Notes under the pieces: generated by a model
Told to the model about the DNA's origin: nothing
The model's database searches: none
Seen by the model: only the letters and a program-made list of their open reading frames with translations
Part shown: positions 29,628 to 40,077 of the stretch, in pieces
Layout of the letters: the number at the start of each line of letters is the position of its first letter
Position numbering within the stretch: position 1 is the first letter of the stretch
Assembly (NCBI GenBank): GCA_001899635.1
Contig: MKVQ01000030.1
Coordinates: 147,875 to 211,874 of the forward strand
Direction: 5' to 3'
Length of the DNA: 64,000 bases
Source of the DNA: Myxococcales bacterium 68-20
GTDB lineage: Bacteria > Myxococcota_A > Polyangia > Polyangiales > Polyangiaceae
Translations under genes and position numbers: made by a program

Positions 29628-31484
<1,857 letters not shown>

Positions 31485-31517
31485 TCCCTCGCCACACCGT
31501 CCCTTTCGTCCCCGCCA

Positions 31518-31560
31518 GCGCGCGCGTCGTCCATTCCAGGCGGCGCGCGCGTTTGCGTTT
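31518..31560 (+). terminator. Terminator after the acyl-CoA dehydrogenase
   Basis: A 12-bp GC-rich stem with two G-U wobbles joins 31518-31529 to 31541-31552 across an 11-nt loop. It is followed by TTTGCGTTT, a broken U-run. It lies 33 bases after the stop codon and isolates the kinase-like gene that follows. Confidence 0.65.
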
Positions 31561-31602: not shown

Positions 31603-32784
31603 GTGAGCACGACGCCCCGCGAAGACAACGACCACGCCAACGCTCGGGTGGGGACGACCGTCGATCGGAAGTGGCGGCTCGATGCGCTCGTTGCGATCAG
31701 CTCGGTGGCAGCGACCTACAAGGCGACGCATCGCAACGGCGTCGAGACCGCGCTGAAGATCCTCCACCGGTCGCAGTCGACCTATGCGCCGGTCGTCGAG
31801 CGCTTTCTCCAGGAAGCGCATCTCGCCAATCGAATCGATCACCCGGGCGTCGAACGCGTCCTCGACGACGGAAAGACGGAGGACGGCTCCGTCTTCCTCG
31901 TGATGGAGCTCCTCGCAGGCGACACGCTCGAGGACCGACGCTCGGCGGCCGGAGGCAAGCTCGCGCTCGACGACGCCCTCCCCGCGTTCGACGGCTTCCT
32001 CGACGCGCTGATCGCGATCCACACGGCAGGCGTCTTCCATCGCAACCTGAAGCCGGCCAACGTGTTCCTCGCGACGGACGGCCGGGTCGTGCTCACCGAC
32101 TTCGGGCGCGCCCGTCTCGCCGAGCGCGACGCCAAGGCGGCGCTCTCGGTCGAAGGCCTCGTGCTCGGGACGCCGGCGTACATGTCCCCGGAGCAAGCGC
32201 AGGGGAAGCGCAGCCAGATCGACGCGAGCTCGGACATCTGGTCGGCCGGCGCGATCCTGTTCACCGCCCTGACGGGGCGCCGGGTGCACGAGGGCAACAG
32301 CAACCACGAGCGGCTGCTCCACGCGCAGACGAAGCCCGCGCCGAAGATCGCCTCGCTGCTCCCGGAGCTCGCCCCGGCGGTGGCGGACGTCATCGACCGC
32401 GCGCTCGCGTTCGAGAAGAAGGACCGCTGGCCCAGCGCGTCCGAGATGCGCCGTGCGTTCTGGCTCGCGACCGGCCGTGACGAGTCGACGCTCCCGGCGG
32501 AGACGAAGCCGGCCACCGCAAAGCCCGACCAGGGCTCACCGGCGGCGCCGGCCCGTAGCGAGGCCTCGCAGTGGCTGGAGAGCGCCACCAAGAAGTCGGA
32601 CGATGCGGACCTCTTGCCCCCGCCGGTCGCCGCGTTCGTGAGGACCGACCCTTCGGTGGTGCTCCACGGGGCCTCGCCCGCACGACGGAAAAAGCTCTCG
32701 AAGACGACGATCCTCGCCACCGTCGCGATGGTGCTCCTCGTCGGCTGCGTCGCGGGCATCATCGTCCTCACGTTCACCGACTGA
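31603..32784 (+). CDS. Serine/threonine kinase-like protein, probable pseudokinase, with C-terminal TM segment
   Basis: The Hanks-type kinase fold (residues 15-285) is followed by a linker and one membrane helix near the C-terminus (about 365-390) preceded by RRKKLSK. The ATP lysine K52 (ALKIL) and DFG Asp D166 (LTDFGRA) are present, as is the APE-like SPEQ. In the catalytic loop the HRD Asp is Asn: HRNLKPANV with N148. The glycine loop (AISSVAATYKA) has lost its glycines. Phosphotransfer is therefore doubtful and a scaffold role is likely, though residual activity cannot be excluded. It starts at GTG. Confidence 0.85.
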   Translation: MSTTPREDNDHANARVGTTVDRKWRLDALVAISSVAATYKATHRNGVETALKILHRSQSTYAPVVERFLQEAHLANRIDHPGVERVLDDGKTEDGSVFLVMELLAGDTLEDRRSAAGGKLALDDALPAFDGFLDALIAIHTAGVFHRNLKPANVFLATDGRVVLTDFGRARLAERDAKAALSVEGLVLGTPAYMSPEQAQGKRSQIDASSDIWSAGAILFTALTGRRVHEGNSNHERLLHAQTKPAPKIASLLPELAPAVADVIDRALAFEKKDRWPSASEMRRAFWLATGRDESTLPAETKPATAKPDQGSPAAPARSEASQWLESATKKSDDADLLPPPVAAFVRTDPSVVLHGASPARRKKLSKTTILATVAMVLLVGCVAGIIVLTFTD

Positions 32785-32906
32785 CCCGCTCCGCTGCGAG
32801 CCAGGGTTCAACCTCGAGGGCCCGGTCGCCTGAAGCCACGTCGCGATGCGATCGTGCTCGAGCCTCCGTCGCTCCCGACCGCGACCGCCGGCCCACTCGT
32901 GCATCG

Positions 32907-33290
32907 CTAGCAGGTCACCTCCCAGAGGTGCCCGTTGTCATCGTGGAAGTAGACGCGCCCGGCACCACCGAGGACGTCCTCCGTCTTTCTGTTGTTCGTA
33001 TCGTGGGGCTCATTCCCGAAAGCAACGCGCTTGGAGCGCAGGCGCGCGACGATCTCGCCGAAACGGCTCTCGTCGACCCGGAAGGCAACGTGCGAGAAGC
33101 GCGGCTCGTTCGAGGGGGAGAACAGAATGAAGGCATCGTGATCGAGGTCGATACGAAGCATGTCGTCGTCCTCGCCCTCCGGAACCGGGAGCCCGGCGCC
33201 AAGGAGCTCGGCAATGAAGTACGCCGACGCCCTCAGATCGCGAGCATCCACGGCCATGTGGTCAAACTGCAAACTCGATTTGTTCGTCAT
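32907..33290 (-). CDS. VOC (glyoxalase/bleomycin-resistance) family protein
   Basis: A 127-residue protein with two beta-alpha-beta-beta-beta modules. Metal-ligand-type residues are visible: His in FDHMAV (residue 11), His in SHVAF and Glu in LWEV near the end. The substrate is not predictable. It is the last gene of a minus-strand unit with a marR-type regulator and a truncated VOC fragment, so its product is probably induced by the ligand of that regulator. Confidence 0.8.
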   Translation of the reverse strand: MTNKSSLQFDHMAVDARDLRASAYFIAELLGAGLPVPEGEDDDMLRIDLDHDAFILFSPSNEPRFSHVAFRVDESRFGEIVARLRSKRVAFGNEPHDTNNRKTEDVLGGAGRVYFHDDNGHLWEVTC

Positions 33291-33302
33291 GCTCTTTCGT
33301 CC

Positions 33303-33434
33303 TCAGATTGTTCGGTACAAGTCGCCGTCGTCTCCCTCGACGGCGGGCTCACCGACGCCGAGGATGCCGGCCGAGAAACGGGCAGAGGACGCAGCGTCGA
33401 TGGCGCCTACTTGGACGTGGTCATTGTGAATCAT
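33303..33434 (-). pseudogene. Truncated VOC N-terminal module between marR and VOC genes
   Basis: A 43-codon frame starts at an ATG overlapping the marR stop as ATGA and ends at 33303. Its residues from DHVQVGAID to DDGDLYR align without gaps to residues DHMAV... to ...DDDMLR of the following VOC protein, with 18 of 37 identical by direct count. It covers only about one beta-alpha-beta-beta unit, so a stand-alone enzyme is unlikely. The likely origin is an ancient tandem duplication followed by a deletion. It might still serve as a leader peptide coupling marR and VOC translation. Confidence 0.7.
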
Positions 33435-33901
33435 GATTTGCTTTCTTGGTGATTGGACTGCCTGACTGCTTCTTCATCGAGCTCGCGCAGGGCTTCCGTG
33501 ATCGCCGTCACGAGCTTGCGGCGAGTCCCCTCGGACACGTGTTCGATGGCTGACTCGAACTCTTCGATGCGGACCGACCTGAACCGGGCGAGGAACGTCT
33601 TCGCCTTCGGAGTCGGTTCGATCGTCCGCTTGCGGCGGTCGTGCTGGTCCTCGACACGGCGCGCGAGTCCTTGGCTGACCAGACGCTCGATCATCTGACT
33701 CACCGATGGCAGGGTGAGGTTCATCTTCCCCGCCAGCGTCGTTGGCGTGCTGCCGGGCTCGGTCAGTGCGTGGTTCAGCAGGATGGCCTGGTCCACGGTG
33801 ACCTGCGACTTCGCGAGGAATGACAACGCCCGCCCGCGCGGGTGGGAGACCTCGTTCACGAACGCCTCCAGTAGGGCGCCCAACCTGTCGTCAGCTTTCA
33901 T
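33431..33901 (-). CDS. MarR-family transcription regulator
   Basis: A 156-residue winged-helix regulator. The recognition region is readable (TPTTLAGKMNLTLPSVSQMIERLVSQGLARRVED) followed by the wing (DRRKRTIEPT). MarR proteins dimerise and usually repress a neighbouring operon until a phenolic or oxidant ligand binds. The downstream overlap with the VOC fragment and the VOC gene suggests one transcript. A palindrome upstream (34039-34056) is a candidate operator for autoregulation. Confidence 0.88.
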   Translation of the reverse strand: MKADDRLGALLEAFVNEVSHPRGRALSFLAKSQVTVDQAILLNHALTEPGSTPTTLAGKMNLTLPSVSQMIERLVSQGLARRVEDQHDRRKRTIEPTPKAKTFLARFRSVRIEEFESAIEHVSEGTRRKLVTAITEALRELDEEAVRQSNHQESKS

Positions 33902-34038
33902 CGCCCCTCACTTCCGGAAAGACACGTGACCCGCTCCAGGTAGGACTCCACGACTCAGCGCTTCCGTCCGGCCGGCTGAGTCATGCGTCGGGCTCGGCAA
34001 GATCGACCTGGCGGCACATAGTTCACGCGCACACATAG

Positions 34039-34056: not shown

Positions 34057-34252
34057 TCGTCAAGGCGCGCGATGGCGCCACCGACGCGACTCCACGGGTC
34101 GCCGCGTCGTCCATCGTCGCGTTGCTCGCGATGCGCCGCGTTGGCGGCCTCGACCGTGCCGCTCTCGCAGAACGAGCACGTGACTCGGAGTGATACAGGG
34201 CGGCAGCAGGAACCGCGCCTTCGCAGCCGCGAAGGTGGGGTATGTTGCAGTG

Positions 34253-35991: not shown

Positions 35992-36064
35992 TCCAGCTTA
36001 GCTCAGTCGGTAGAGCAGGCGGCTGTTAACCGCCGGGTCGCTGGTTCGAGTCCAGCAGCTGGAG
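35992..36064 (+). tRNA. tRNA-Asn (anticodon GTT)
   Basis: All four arms fold. The acceptor stem is TCCAGCT (35992-35998) with AGCTGGA (36057-36063) and discriminator G at 36064. The D-arm contains GCTCAGTCGGTAGAGC. The anticodon stem is GGCGG/CCGCC with anticodon GTT at 36025-36027. The T-arm is GCTGG-TTCGAGT-CCAGC. CCA is not encoded. It is transcribed alone and ends at the terminator that follows. Confidence 0.96.
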
Positions 36065-36078
36065 CAAAAGGAAAACGA

Positions 36079-36115
36079 ACGACAGGGCCGCGGTCTCCGC
36101 GGCCCTCGTCGTTTT
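36079..36115 (+). terminator. Rho-independent terminator after tRNA-Asn
   Basis: The stem ACGAC-A-GGGCCGCGG (36079-36093) pairs with CCGCGGCCC-TC-GTCGT, closing on a 3-nt TCT loop and followed by TTT. It lies 15 bases after the tRNA and is the cleanest terminator in the window. Confidence 0.85.
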
Positions 36116-36168
36116 GTGGCCGAGCGACGTGCGACGGTTCGGGATGGCTGAGGCAAGCTGTTGCGGGC

Positions 36169-36447
36169 ATGTTCGCCGAACCTTGCTTACGCGCCGCCGA
36201 ACCGAAGACCGCGAGGGCGACCGAGCGCGTAGGGCCCGGCACGATCACCCCTGCCCTCGCGGCATTCGTCCGAGCCGCGAACGACTTCTGCGCGTTCGTG
36301 GATGCTGCCGACAAGCTCAACCTGCCCGACCGGCTGACGAGCGCACGCGAGCTACTGCTCACCCTCTACGCGTCCGGCGCGAAGCTCCCGGAAGTCGAAA
36401 GGGTCACCGACCGACAAGCTCCGACCTACCCGGACCCGGAACGGTAA
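36169..36447 (+). CDS. Truncated DUF5063-family gene
   Basis: The 92-residue product contains a helical segment with AFVRAANDFCAFVD and SARELLLTLYASGAKLPEVE, matching the N-terminal part of DUF5063 proteins as I recall them. Family members run to about 170 residues. Here the frame stops after TYPDPER, where the family normally continues, so the gene appears cut at its 3' end. No ribosome-binding site stands out and the start is uncertain. It lies next to tRNA-Asn and 11 bases before the ATP-grasp gene. The function of the family is unknown. Confidence 0.45.
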   Translation: MFAEPCLRAAEPKTARATERVGPGTITPALAAFVRAANDFCAFVDAADKLNLPDRLTSARELLLTLYASGAKLPEVERVTDRQAPTYPDPER

Positions 36448-36458
36448 GCTTCCCTCCT

Positions 36459-37163
36459 GTGACCCCTCTGGTCTTGCTCATCCCCGATAAGCCGGACGCG
36501 GAGCGCGACGCCGTCGCGACAGCGTGGGAGAGCGCGGGCGGTTCGGTCTCGCGGATCGGCAGATTCTGGGAACCGCCCGAAGTGGATCGAGCCCACGCGC
36601 GGGTCTACGGAAACGACACGTTCTGCCTCGTTCTGGCGGAGAAGCTGGCCTTGCACCTGGTGTCTCCTCACGATCGCATCTTGGAGAGCGCCCCCGAGGC
36701 ACTGCTCCATCGTCGTCTGCGAATCACTTCCCTCGGGAAGTTGGGGGGCGAGCCGTTTCCGGTCTTTGTGAAGCCGGTCACGCCCAAGCAATTCAAGAGC
36801 GGTGTCTACGCTTCAAGAGAGGCGCTTGCAGCCGAGACGCACGGCCTCGGACCAGAAGTCGAAGTCATCGTTTCGGAGGTGGTCACTTTCGTCGCCGAAG
36901 CCCGCGCGTTCGTGCTCGATGCATCCGTCAAGACTTGCGCGATCTACGAAGGCAGCGCGGACGCCGAAGACGCCGCGCAGTTCGCGGCGCAGGTCATCCA
37001 CGCGATCGAGCTTCCCCGAACCTGCGTCGTGGACGTCGGACTGCTTCCCGATGGGCGCTGGGCCCTCGTCGAATGCAACGCGACATGGGGAGCCGGGCTC
37101 AACGGTTGTAGCGCCTCGTCCGTAGTGGACTGCATCGCTTCAGCATCGAGTGCAGCCCCCTAG
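36459..37163 (+). CDS. ATP-grasp domain protein (R2K-like)
   Basis: This 234-residue protein appears to have an ATP-grasp fold. The phosphate-binding strand is readable as VFVKPVTPKQFKSGVY, and later acidic metal-ligand segments are EVIVSEVVTFVAEARAFV and VVDVGLLPDGRWALVECNATWGAG. ATP-grasp enzymes ligate a carboxylate to an amine or thiol, or modify a protein. The substrate is not evident. The GTG start at 36459 gives the family-like N-terminus TPLVLLIPDKPD. It lies just after the DUF5063 fragment. Confidence 0.65.
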   Translation: MTPLVLLIPDKPDAERDAVATAWESAGGSVSRIGRFWEPPEVDRAHARVYGNDTFCLVLAEKLALHLVSPHDRILESAPEALLHRRLRITSLGKLGGEPFPVFVKPVTPKQFKSGVYASREALAAETHGLGPEVEVIVSEVVTFVAEARAFVLDASVKTCAIYEGSADAEDAAQFAAQVIHAIELPRTCVVDVGLLPDGRWALVECNATWGAGLNGCSASSVVDCIASASSAAP

Positions 37164-37272
37164 CCCTCCGCCGTCGCCGACTGGCGACGCGATTGGGCCA
37201 AAGCACGGCGCTCCCGGGCGCTCGCCTCGAACGGATAGCCGGTGTGCCCCGTCGCCCGATGGACGTCAGCGC

Positions 37273-38109
37273 TCACAGCGTCGGCAGGATCACGACGAAC
37301 CCCGGCTGGCCGGCCACGGGGCCACCGCCGGAGAAACCGCCACCCTTGCCGCCACTCCCGGCGCCGCCGTCGCCGCCACCGGCACCTCCGGGAGCATTGC
37401 TCACGCCGTTGCTGCCAGGTTTGCCATCGGCGATGTCGAGTCGAACGAGCGCGTTCGTGATCGTCGCGGCGCCTCCGGCGCCGCCGGTTCCCGGCTGGCT
37501 CGGGGTTCCGCTGATCATGCTCCCGCCGGCAGCGCCCCCCTCCGCCGACGCGAGCATGGCCCCGCCCTGGATCTTGACCGAGCTCGTGCCGCCCCCCGTT
37601 GCGTCGACGCGGGGCGGAGGCGCTCCCGAACAGCTCTGGGACGCAGCCCTCCCCGCGGTGCCGGCGGTGACCTCGAGAACCTCACCTGGTGTGACCGCGA
37701 ATATCCCGCGGAGAAGAGCGCCCTCGCCGCCGCCGCCGCCGGACAGACATCCGCCGCTCGCGCCTTGCGCGGAGCCACCGCCGCCTCCGCCGCCGCGCGC
37801 TTCGATGACCAGCTTCGTCACGCCGTCCGGAACCGTGTATGTACCCGAGCTCGCAACGAAGGAGCTGGCGCCCGGCCCCGCAGGTCCTTGCTCTCCGGCG
37901 TCGCCGCGATCCCCGTTCACGCCGGCGGGGCCTCTCGCACCGGGAGCGCCCCCTGCACCAATCTCGCCGGCTGCCCCCGCAGGCCCCTCGGCTCCGACTG
38001 CGCCGGCCGCACCGGCTGGACCGGGCGGTCCTGCCTCGCCGGAACAGGCGCCGACGAGAACGGCAACAACGACGAACCGCAAGCAGCGAACACTCTCGAC
38101 TACGCGCAT
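37273..38109 (-). CDS. Collagen-like Gly-X-Y lipoprotein
   Basis: A signal ends in VLVGACSG (Cys about residue 22), consistent with lipidation. From about residue 26 to 80 runs a collagen-type repeat (GPPGPAGAAGAVGAEGPAG, then G-X-Y to GEQGPAGPG). The remainder is Gly-rich, with GGGGGGG stretches and two regions of beta-type sequence such as SSGTYTVPDGVTKLVIEA. The protein is probably exposed on the surface. I chose the ATG at 38109 because AGAGG lies about 8 bases upstream. Low complexity makes any homology claim weak. Confidence 0.75.
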   Translation of the reverse strand: MRVVESVRCLRFVVVAVLVGACSGEAGPPGPAGAAGAVGAEGPAGAAGEIGAGGAPGARGPAGVNGDRGDAGEQGPAGPGASSFVASSGTYTVPDGVTKLVIEARGGGGGGGSAQGASGGCLSGGGGGEGALLRGIFAVTPGEVLEVTAGTAGRAASQSCSGAPPPRVDATGGGTSSVKIQGGAMLASAEGGAAGGSMISGTPSQPGTGGAGGAATITNALVRLDIADGKPGSNGVSNAPGGAGGGDGGAGSGGKGGGFSGGGPVAGQPGFVVILPTL

Positions 38110-38336
38110 CAGCACCTCTGTTCACTCACTCGCGAGGCGAGCGAAGGCACGAACGCTCTGTGAAACGAGCGCACGACTTCATACTCCACCGTCACGCGAG
38201 GTCTCCACCGATCTTCTTCGTGCGATGGCACGAGATCCGTGCGTGCTCGCCCCCCGCGTGCGGCCTCCGCGAGCGCCTTCTCTTTCCGACGAAGCTCGCG
38301 TTCAAGCTCCCTCGACCGTGTTGCCCGAGACTGCAA

Positions 38337-38557
38337 TGCGGTCGATCAGGATCCGCACGTAGGACGGCGAGCTTGGCTTCCTGCGATCAGCCCATCGTGA
38401 CGACGACCTTGCCCTTCGCGCGGCCTTTCTCGAGGTAGGCGAACGCCTCGGCGATCTTGGCGAAGGAAAAGACTCGGTCGACGACGACCTCGAGCTTCTT
38501 CGCGTCGATGAGAGAGGCAAGCACTTCGAGGTCCTTCCCGCTCGGTCGCATGAACAG
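38337..38557. repeat. 221-bp repeat A (copy of 43421-43641)
   Basis: This block matches 43421-43641 over 221 bases with six mismatches by my count and no gaps. It covers the last part of an oxidoreductase gene and its 3' flank; weaker similarity continues back to about 38311. It shows that part of the 43.4-44.5 kb locus was copied here. Confidence 0.9.
38387..38557 (-). pseudogene. C-terminal fragment of a zinc-type/quinone oxidoreductase
   Basis: Reading from about 38557 to the stop at 38387 gives LFMRPSGKDLEVLASLIDAK and on to KGKVVVTMG, which differs at only two or three residues from the end of the intact enzyme encoded at 43471-44475. The first 280 residues are missing. Upstream in the same frame the sequence is not homologous. 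It is a duplicated gene fragment and is not expected to be functional. Confidence 0.85.
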
Positions 38558-39117
38558 GGTGTCGGAGCCACGACTTGCGCCTCCGCCCGCCGCGCGTGGC
38601 GCTTGCGTCCTCTTCCCGCCCCGGACGACGTGCGTGCCCGGCTCGAAGACAAGGAGCGCGGCGCGCGCTCCCACCTTGGCCACGTCGTTCGGCCGTGAGC
38701 TTGCTTCGGTCCTCCGCGAAGGCGCAACCCAGCTGCGCCGATCCTGGAAGGCCGAAGCGGTCGGCTCACACGAGCAGGCTTGGACCGGAGATTCACGCCC
38801 GCTCGCCCAACGGGCGGGCGTGAATCGGAGGACAATGCAAGTGAGCACCGCTAGAGCTCGTGTGCTCGAGCGAACGCGCGCAGGCCCCGCGGACGAGCAC
38901 GTCTTGAAGCGAACGGTAGCGCGTCGAAGTCGGCCCGCACTTTGGACACGGAAACAGCGCTCCGAACTCTGTGTAGACCACCTCCTTCGGAGCCCACTCC
39001 GGAAGCTCGACGTGTGCCAGCGGCCCCCCCGCTCGGCAATGGTTGGATGAACGGCGCTTGCCACCGCTCTGGGCTGGCAGCCAGAGGCTTCGCGCGGAGG
39101 GGACACGCGCTCGAACT
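38558..39117. pseudogene. Degenerate region with gene relics
   Basis: No intact gene fits here. On the minus strand the frame from about 39030 to 38793 reads ELPEWAPKEVVYT followed by a CPKCG motif and then stops. ELPEWAPKE is also found in the relic at 44549-44858. The nucleotides at 38971-39014 match 44574-44617 at 41 of 44 positions, so both ends of this segment are copied from the 43.4-44.6 kb locus. The 400 bases between carry no homology to it. Confidence 0.55.
38790..38826. repeat. Perfect inverted repeat in the degenerate region
   Basis: GATTCACGCCC at 38790-38800 is the reverse complement of GGGCGTGAATC at 38816-38826. Inside, GCCC-AAC-GGGC forms a second stem. It is too long to be chance in this length and has no T-run. 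It may be the trace of a terminator or a mobile element end. Confidence 0.7.
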
Positions 39118-40077
39118 TCACCGTTTCGGAGGTCGCCTCGTGTTCGAGCGCATGCTCGCTCCGCGAGCCGTCGCTCCGGACTTGATGGGGGGGCGGACCT
39201 CCTGCGCGCTTTCGATCAGTGCGCGTACGGCGGACGTACCCGAGTCTTTGGCGCGCCACGTGACGAACTCGCTCAGGTGGATGTGGAGGTCTTCGACAGG
39301 TCGCCAGGTCATCGAGGTCTGCGAGGCCAAGTCGGAAATGTTCTCGCCGACGAAGGTGATCGCGTCGCCGATCGCGACCAGCGCCATGAGCGCCTCGAGA
39401 TCGATCACCTCCGCCGTCACGTGCAGCGTCACGCCCTGCTCGTATGCCGCAGTGATGAGGTCCGCGTGCAGACGCGGATAGAGCTGACGTGGCTGAAGGA
39501 GCACGCGCTCGGTTTCCAGATCGCGCAGCCGAATCTTCTTGAGACCCGCCAGTCGGTGGTAGGGCGACAGGAGCAAACCCAATCGATCGCGGGTCATCTC
39601 CAGGTGGCCGAGGACGTCGTCGGTCGGCGCATAGGCGCCGTAGCCAAAGGCAATCGTGCCCTGCCGTAGCGCCGCCCACTGCTCGACGCTGCTCATCGGC
39701 AGGAGCTGCAAGCCGAGGCGTGGTGTGCGCCTCCTGAACGCGGCGACGAGGGAGAGGAGCGCCCCCATGAAGGTCGTCCCCGTCTCGAAGCCGATGACGA
39801 CAGTGCCGAGTCGCCCTTCGGCGATCCCTTTGGCCTCGTCGACGGCCGCATCGACACTCGCCAAGATGCTGCGGGCTCTCTCCGCGAAGGTCTTCCCAGC
39901 GGTGGTGAGCTTGATGCCTCGCCCCTCGGGCTCGAAGAGCGCCACTCCCATCTCCTCCTCGAGGTCCTTCATTTGACGGCTCAGCGGAGACTGGGAAACG
40001 TGGAGCCGATCGGCCGCGCGTCGAAAGCTCTGCTCCTCGGCGATGGTCACGAAGTAGCGCAGGTGTCGGAGTTCCAT
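39118..40077 (-). CDS. LysR-family transcription regulator
   Basis: A 319-residue LTTR. The N-terminal winged HTH spans residues 1-60 (LRHLRYFVTIAEEQSFRRAA, SQSPLSRQMKDLEEEMG). The ligand domain (90-300) is BenM/CatM-like in its flow but the inducer is unknown. It diverges from the FAD-monooxygenase/reductase pair, with an 84-base gap that contains a palindrome ATTGG-T-CCAAT. LysR proteins normally activate the divergent operon and repress themselves. The C-terminal tail is basic and low in structure. Confidence 0.88.
   Translation of the reverse strand: MELRHLRYFVTIAEEQSFRRAADRLHVSQSPLSRQMKDLEEEMGVALFEPEGRGIKLTTAGKTFAERARSILASVDAAVDEAKGIAEGRLGTVVIGFETGTTFMGALLSLVAAFRRRTPRLGLQLLPMSSVEQWAALRQGTIAFGYGAYAPTDDVLGHLEMTRDRLGLLLSPYHRLAGLKKIRLRDLETERVLLQPRQLYPRLHADLITAAYEQGVTLHVTAEVIDLEALMALVAIGDAITFVGENISDLASQTSMTWRPVEDLHIHLSEFVTWRAKDSGTSAVRALIESAQEVRPPIKSGATARGASMRSNTRRPPKR

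Follow-up and report, generated by a model that had tools for sequence, protein, structure and literature searches.

Whether a Hanks-type kinase fold with Asn at the place of the catalytic HRD Asp is a genuine pseudokinase, a weak enzyme, a decaying duplicate or a sequencing artefact is the question raised by a gene of Myxococcales bacterium 68-20, which was analysed within a window of 64,000 nt (the whole stretch of DNA under study; Table 1). The open reading frame has a third-position GC of 0.91, a coding signal, and encodes 393 residues arranged as a Hanks-type kinase domain (residues 36–283, Pfam Pkinase, 115.6 bits; cut-off 31.7) that is followed by a variable linker and a single predicted membrane helix at the C-terminus. 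The AlphaFold2 model, built on a 17-row alignment (mean pLDDT 77.2), predicts the kinase core, mostly at pLDDT above 90, and the C-terminal helix, with low confidence in the activation loop (177–187) and the linker (302–367). A 19-residue hydropathic maximum at residues 370–388 leaves five residues to the end of the protein, and the corresponding 19-mer lies 2–5 residues from the C-terminus in this protein and in both of its orthologues (handled here as G005 and G007), so that the membrane anchoring proposed in the initial annotation agrees with the prediction for all three members. Since merely 2–5 residues follow the helix, the protein would have no outside sensor or extracytoplasmic domain. 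The best fold matches in a Foldseek search of the PDB are Mycobacterium PknB and PknA (TM-score by target 0.90), and PknA is the closest solved structure by sequence (124 bits). PknB consists of a cytoplasmic kinase followed by one membrane helix, and the 393-residue protein follows a similar plan, but with HRN and without PASTA or any other outside domain. Membership of the PASTA-kinase family NF033483 was rejected on its score (189.6 bits against a cut-off of 450) and on the short end after the hydrophobic stretch, and no NCBIfam equivalog scored above its cut-off. Matches to PADLOC models of the PD-T4-6 type (up to 249 bits) and to MAD6 (144.9 bits against a cut-off of 460) are at levels that any Hanks kinase may give, and no defence genes were found among the Pfam-scanned neighbours.

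Table 1. Coordinates in the window of the kinase-like gene, its active-site residues and its upstream flank
Feature	Position	Strand	Remarks
Upstream acyl-CoA dehydrogenase gene	29628..31484	+	Synteny anchor common to G005
G+C-rich hairpin between acyl-CoA dehydrogenase gene and kinase gene	31513..31557	+	Possible terminator
CDS of 393-aa Hanks-type kinase-fold protein (pseudokinase candidate)	31603..32784	+	GTG start; stop included
Degenerate P-loop A31–Y39 (AISSVAATY)	31693..31719	+	Gly1/Gly2 positions are A31 and S33
K52, beta-3 lysine (ALK), kept	31756..31758	+	Invariant in 3/3 members and 17/17 rows of wider alignment
E71, putative alpha-C glutamate, kept	31813..31815	+	3/3 members and 17/17 rows of wider alignment
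HRN motif H146 R147 N148, Asn for catalytic Asp	32038..32046	+	N148 codon AAC
N153, catalytic-loop metal-binding Asn, kept	32059..32061	+	Alignments
DFG motif D166–G168, kept	32098..32106	+	Alignments; intact in 3/3 members
S182, activation-loop Ser, possible trans-phosphorylation site	32146..32148	+	Invariant in 3/3 members; PknA alignment
Predicted single C-terminal transmembrane helix, residues 367–390	32701..32772	+	Structure model and hydropathy

The active site departs from that of a canonical kinase at two places, N148 and the P-loop, and contains no inserted segment. The catalytic loop reads HRNLKPAN, as had been noticed initially, and K52 and D166 are indeed present in the alignments, together with R147, K150, the GTP...PEQ segment, D211 and R275. 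The absence of glycines from the P-loop, claimed at the same time, is correct for this protein and is shared by G005, so that two of the three members have lost them; it was rejected as a trait of the family, as G007 keeps GSGSLA. The activation-loop residue S182 corresponds, in the alignment to PknA, to the first Thr of VTQTG, a stretch whose Thr residues we take to be activation-loop phosphosites in PknA and PknB. E184 (LSxEG) was considered as a mark specific to the pseudokinase and discarded, since the HRD kinase L057 also has it. Bacterial Ser/Thr pseudokinases are defined by sequence, in the passages concerned of a review, as lacking at least one of the beta-3 Lys, the HRD Asp and the DFG Asp (PMC12599244). 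With a Pkinase fold in which the HRD Asp is replaced by Asn148 and K52 and D166 are kept, the 393-residue protein is a bacterial Ser/Thr pseudokinase by this sequence definition.

The substitution is also found outside the window. When 12 genomes of the genus were searched, the highest-scoring matches other than the protein itself were G005 (69% identity, 564 bits) and G007 (52% identity, 378 bits, full length with tail), ahead of a third match at 305 bits, and both orthologues carry HRN (HRNLKSAN and HRNLKPEN); their contigs are JAHBWA010000131.1 (Labilithrix sp. ACE_MYX5) and JAGQJA010000555.1 (Myxococcales bacterium HKST-UBA18), genus-mates that agree with the Polyangiales origin assumed in the initial annotation. 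The open reading frame is intact in all three assemblies. HRD was read in all 27 further loci of the genus search (L034–L060), and a scan of 22 loci in the named collection gave the two HRN orthologues, 17 HRD loci and one locus with HRS and GFC (L111), with two (L126 and L127) unreadable by the motif script. A profile of the three members run against 183 genomes of the order scored 716–757 bits on the members themselves, a match by construction, and 386 bits on the next protein, and the other loci of this search were likewise HRD (27/27). In the own genome, DNA patterns for HRNxKxxN and HRDxKxxN occur at 1 and 152 sites, respectively, which are motif counts and not a full kinome census; this ratio, together with HRN in both orthologues, makes the motif more than a chance occurrence. 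The singularity of the HRN site in its own genome is what an error of sequencing or assembly at codon 148 would also produce, but two other assemblies carry Asn at this codon within diverged surrounding sequence, which refutes this explanation and leaves it a vanishingly small probability. The pseudokinase interpretation thus outlived the search for orthologues with Asp at this position (Asn in 2/2) and is supported by the HRD motif of the other genus and order loci. HRN is retained across 52–69% identity, though one transition would restore Asp; with three members known, few sequences stand behind the word "conserved".

The three HRN proteins group together in a tree built from 45 kinase domains (support 100/99; 98 in another tree), and their clade is nested in one of 20 rows (100/99) that otherwise contains HRD kinases and L111. 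The nearest relatives are same-genus HRD kinases of the ATHRNG type, for example L050 and L057 of the own genome, which share ∼50% kinase-domain identity with the 393-residue protein and have both HRD and a glycine P-loop, neither of which it possesses. The HRD sisters L037, L044 and L047 have, by eye, long tails after the hydrophobic stretch, unlike the 393-residue protein. G007, with its GSGS loop, branches first in the HRN clade, and the simplest order of events would therefore be Asp-to-Asn followed by decay of the P-loop in the line of the 393-residue protein and G005. By simple Nei–Gojobori counts, the kinase-domain dN/dS between these two is 0.24, within the range of four neighbouring genes (0.13–0.30), and that of the linker and tail is 0.77, while kinase-domain comparisons against G007 gave 0.46 and 0.69. 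Constraint on the domain is thus evident for the recent pair and less clear over the longer span, and the higher values against G007 would leave room for partial relaxation. L111 (6001–6843, Polyangiaceae MAG Emb289P4bin34), which has HRS for HRD and GFC for DFG, was rejected as a fourth member; as it groups on a long branch with the HRD kinases L037, L044, L047 and L057, it looks like a separate decay, with an unsure placing.

The genomic setting of the gene differs among the members. In the window and in G005, the kinase gene is flanked on one side by the same acyl-CoA dehydrogenase gene (94% identity) and on the other by a gene of the type found at 34190 in the window (78%). These two flanking genes are 13 nt apart in G009, without a kinase, and are separated by other DNA in G003, G004, G008 and G010; the stretch examined beside the dehydrogenase in G001, G002 and G007 showed no 34190-type gene, and G006 and G011 gave no acyl-CoA dehydrogenase match at the threshold used. 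The kinase gene of G007 is at a different site and adjoins genes for a PEGA/TPR protein and a sulfatase. A search for a partner gene among the scanned neighbours of the window copy gave neither a kinase or phosphatase gene nor an FHA gene. Glyoxalase and MarR-type genes occupy the minus strand at 32907–33901, between the kinase gene and the 34190 gene; this stretch is probably a recent insertion, given the corresponding gap of 154 nt in G005 and a G+C content of 0.64 at 32801–34000 against 0.68 for the window. Further downstream, a simple caller requiring high third-position GC called no gene at 36000–39970. Upstream, the initial annotation had seen a strong terminator isolating the gene. The hairpin is strong, being an inverted repeat with 17-nt arms that folds to a long G+C stem with a loop of 7 (z −2.05), but the T tract directly after it is imperfect (tttgcgttt) and the terminator scan gave it no score; its action as a terminator is possible, and the proposed isolation of the gene is supported in part. 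The same gap in G005 contains a different G+C-rich hairpin, by eye without a T run.

Among described pseudokinases, the actinobacterial family ActPs2 shares with the 393-residue protein the Asn for HRD Asp and the C-terminal membrane region (PMC12599244). As given in parts of the same review, however, ActPs2 has Arg for the beta-3 Lys, a mostly deleted DFG and, in ∼90% of its members, a 32-residue insertion before alpha-C and an activation-loop extension of ∼250 residues (PMC12599244), whereas Lys and DFG are intact here in 3/3 members and long insertions are absent, which rules out membership of ActPs2. The lesion has a parallel in human PSKH2, whose motif HRNLKPEN contains an Asp-to-Asn change as the sole defect of the protein; Lys, Glu and DFG are retained there, PSKH1 stands beside it as an active paralogue, and HRN is likewise described for HER3/ErbB3 and the JH2 domain of JAK2 (PMC7586955, in part). 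The catalytic-loop change is the same in these and in the 393-residue protein, but they are eukaryotic, none is a tail-anchored bacterial protein, and PSKH2 keeps a GTGSFS loop; the likeness is one of working principle, reached independently. A C-terminal membrane helix is a described pattern in bacterial pseudokinases, and passages of the review name scaffolds (EssB/YukC) as well as new enzymes (SidJ and SelO) among them; words beginning with "myxo" are absent from its main text (PMC12599244). Searches of the open-access literature on bacterial and myxobacterial kinases and pseudokinases, Labilithrix included, listed no report of the 393-residue protein and gave nothing on PknB D138N.

The 393-residue protein is probably a tail-anchored pseudokinase whose function lies in binding, namely as a scaffold or allosteric partner of an active paralogue, with catalysis lost or very weak. 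What can be read directly from the sequences is Asn148, the kept Lys, Glu, Asn and DFG and HRN in 3/3 members, in a protein with a predicted kinase fold and a predicted single C-terminal helix. The gene would have arisen by duplication of an ATHRNG-type HRD kinase, phosphotransfer would have been lost through the one Asp-to-Asn change, and the gene would have been retained for a binding role of its kinase domain at the inner membrane, where an active Hanks kinase or the substrate of that kinase is the most likely target; the protein may itself be phosphorylated on the activation loop at S182. The G007 orthologue, which has the GSGS loop, K, E and DFG, probably still binds ATP; for the 393-residue protein and G005, in which the P-loop has decayed, ATP binding is uncertain.

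Other readings account for parts of the same evidence. Asn148 could tolerate slow phosphotransfer in a weak but real kinase, perhaps activated by a partner, as the protein has retained K52, E71, N153, D166, R147 and the GTP...PEQ segment, and the HRN domains of HER3 and JAK2 still have weak kinase activity (PMC7586955, PMC9988210, both in part). The P-loop glycines are nevertheless missing in two of the three members, and PSKH2 is described as inactive both as HRN and with Asp restored (PMC9988210, PMC7586955, both in part), so that a residual kinase is rather unlikely, although it retains some weight. Lower still is the chance that the gene is a duplicate in the course of decaying into a pseudogene. 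Such a course would fit a stepwise loss of the Asp at 148 and then of the P-loop glycines, a distribution limited to three genomes, the raised domain dN/dS with G007 and the deeper decay of the separate relative L111, but the frame is intact in 3/3 members, the domain dN/dS with G005 is similar to that of the neighbours, and the nucleotide-site K, E, N and D are invariant. It is very improbable that the fold now serves a different reaction, such as the AMPylation of SelO or the glutamylation of SidJ (precedents in passages of PMC12599244); the kept ATP- and metal-binding residues would allow this, yet the protein is close to canonical PknA/PknB-type kinases, has no insert and, apart from N148 and the P-loop, shows the usual active-site residues.

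The same change was followed through the taxonomic family. The pattern HRNxKxxN occurs at 25 places in 24 of 108 genomes, with a non-zero count also in the control with the pattern reversed. All 25 places were read: three are non-kinases by context (L062, L064 and L065), L084 is a kinase-like fragment with in-frame stops, and the other 21 lie in intact kinase-like open reading frames, two of them in a single frame (G077), which gives 20 HRN frames in 20 of 108 genomes. Computed without the HRD/HRN column, a 55-row tree (14 HRN and 41 HRD) requires at least six D/N changes, an unpolarised and rough figure given that several HRN rows are on long branches; it used 14 of the 30 own-genome kinases fetched and left out 12 of the 23 script HRN matches (member copies, non-kinases, near-copies and one partial frame). 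None of the 14 HRN rows has lost the beta-3 Lys or the catalytic-loop Asn, and 13 retain the DFG Asp; the alpha-C Glu column contains Glu in nine, Asp in four and Gly in one. A broader pattern, HR-x-KPxN, in which the x codon does not start with G (so that Ala, Gly, Val and Glu fall outside it) and which misses G005 (HRNLKS), was found at 37 places in 106 genomes. The kinase-like places comprise 21 with Asn (one being the broken L084), three with Cys and two with His; seven that were read or scanned gave no kinase, and the remaining four, without a locus, were left out of the reading. The three Cys cases (L160, L163 and L164, in G027, G062 and G063) have HRC for HRD and DFD or a DFM/DFx-type motif at the DFG position.

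Two of the proteins found in this way differ in architecture or distribution from the three-member family. L071 (G077:C7, minus strand) is an open frame of 731 residues with two tandem kinase-like domains, both HRN (HRNVKPGN and HRNLKPGN), with DFA and DFS at the DFG positions and a C-terminal hydrophobic stretch, and is a candidate double pseudokinase. L075–L080 (G084–G089) encode a kinase-like protein with HRNLKP(G/S)N and DLG for DFG in 6/6 genomes of the genus g43, with a hydrophobic stretch at the C-terminus as read in L075 and L080; on these counts, the g43 HRN family is more widely conserved than the three-member one. The recurrence of at least six D/N changes, the presence of the g43 family in all six genomes and the tandem double-HRN protein lead to the tentative suggestion, which we hold as possible rather than probable, that evolution across the family may repeatedly have favoured the Asp-to-Asn change as a way to signalling pseudokinases anchored in the membrane, with the ATP/metal site retained.

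Myxobacterial kinomes are among the largest in bacteria; 317 ELKs are given for Sorangium cellulosum So ce56 (as cited in part of PMC2887360), and in genomes of the family studied here the Hanks-kinase-like candidates can number in the hundreds. The question concerned is how kinases so numerous and so alike stay distinct. The bacterial pseudokinase families described in parts of the review are mostly damaged in several motifs (PMC12599244). The 393-residue protein is instructive as a minimal lesion, and an HRN pseudokinase beside ∼50%-identical HRD paralogues provides a clean pair for probing non-catalytic roles in bacteria. If the Asp-to-Asn change is indeed a favoured route, the family would offer a bacterial parallel to the evolution of pseudokinases of the HER3/PSKH2 type.
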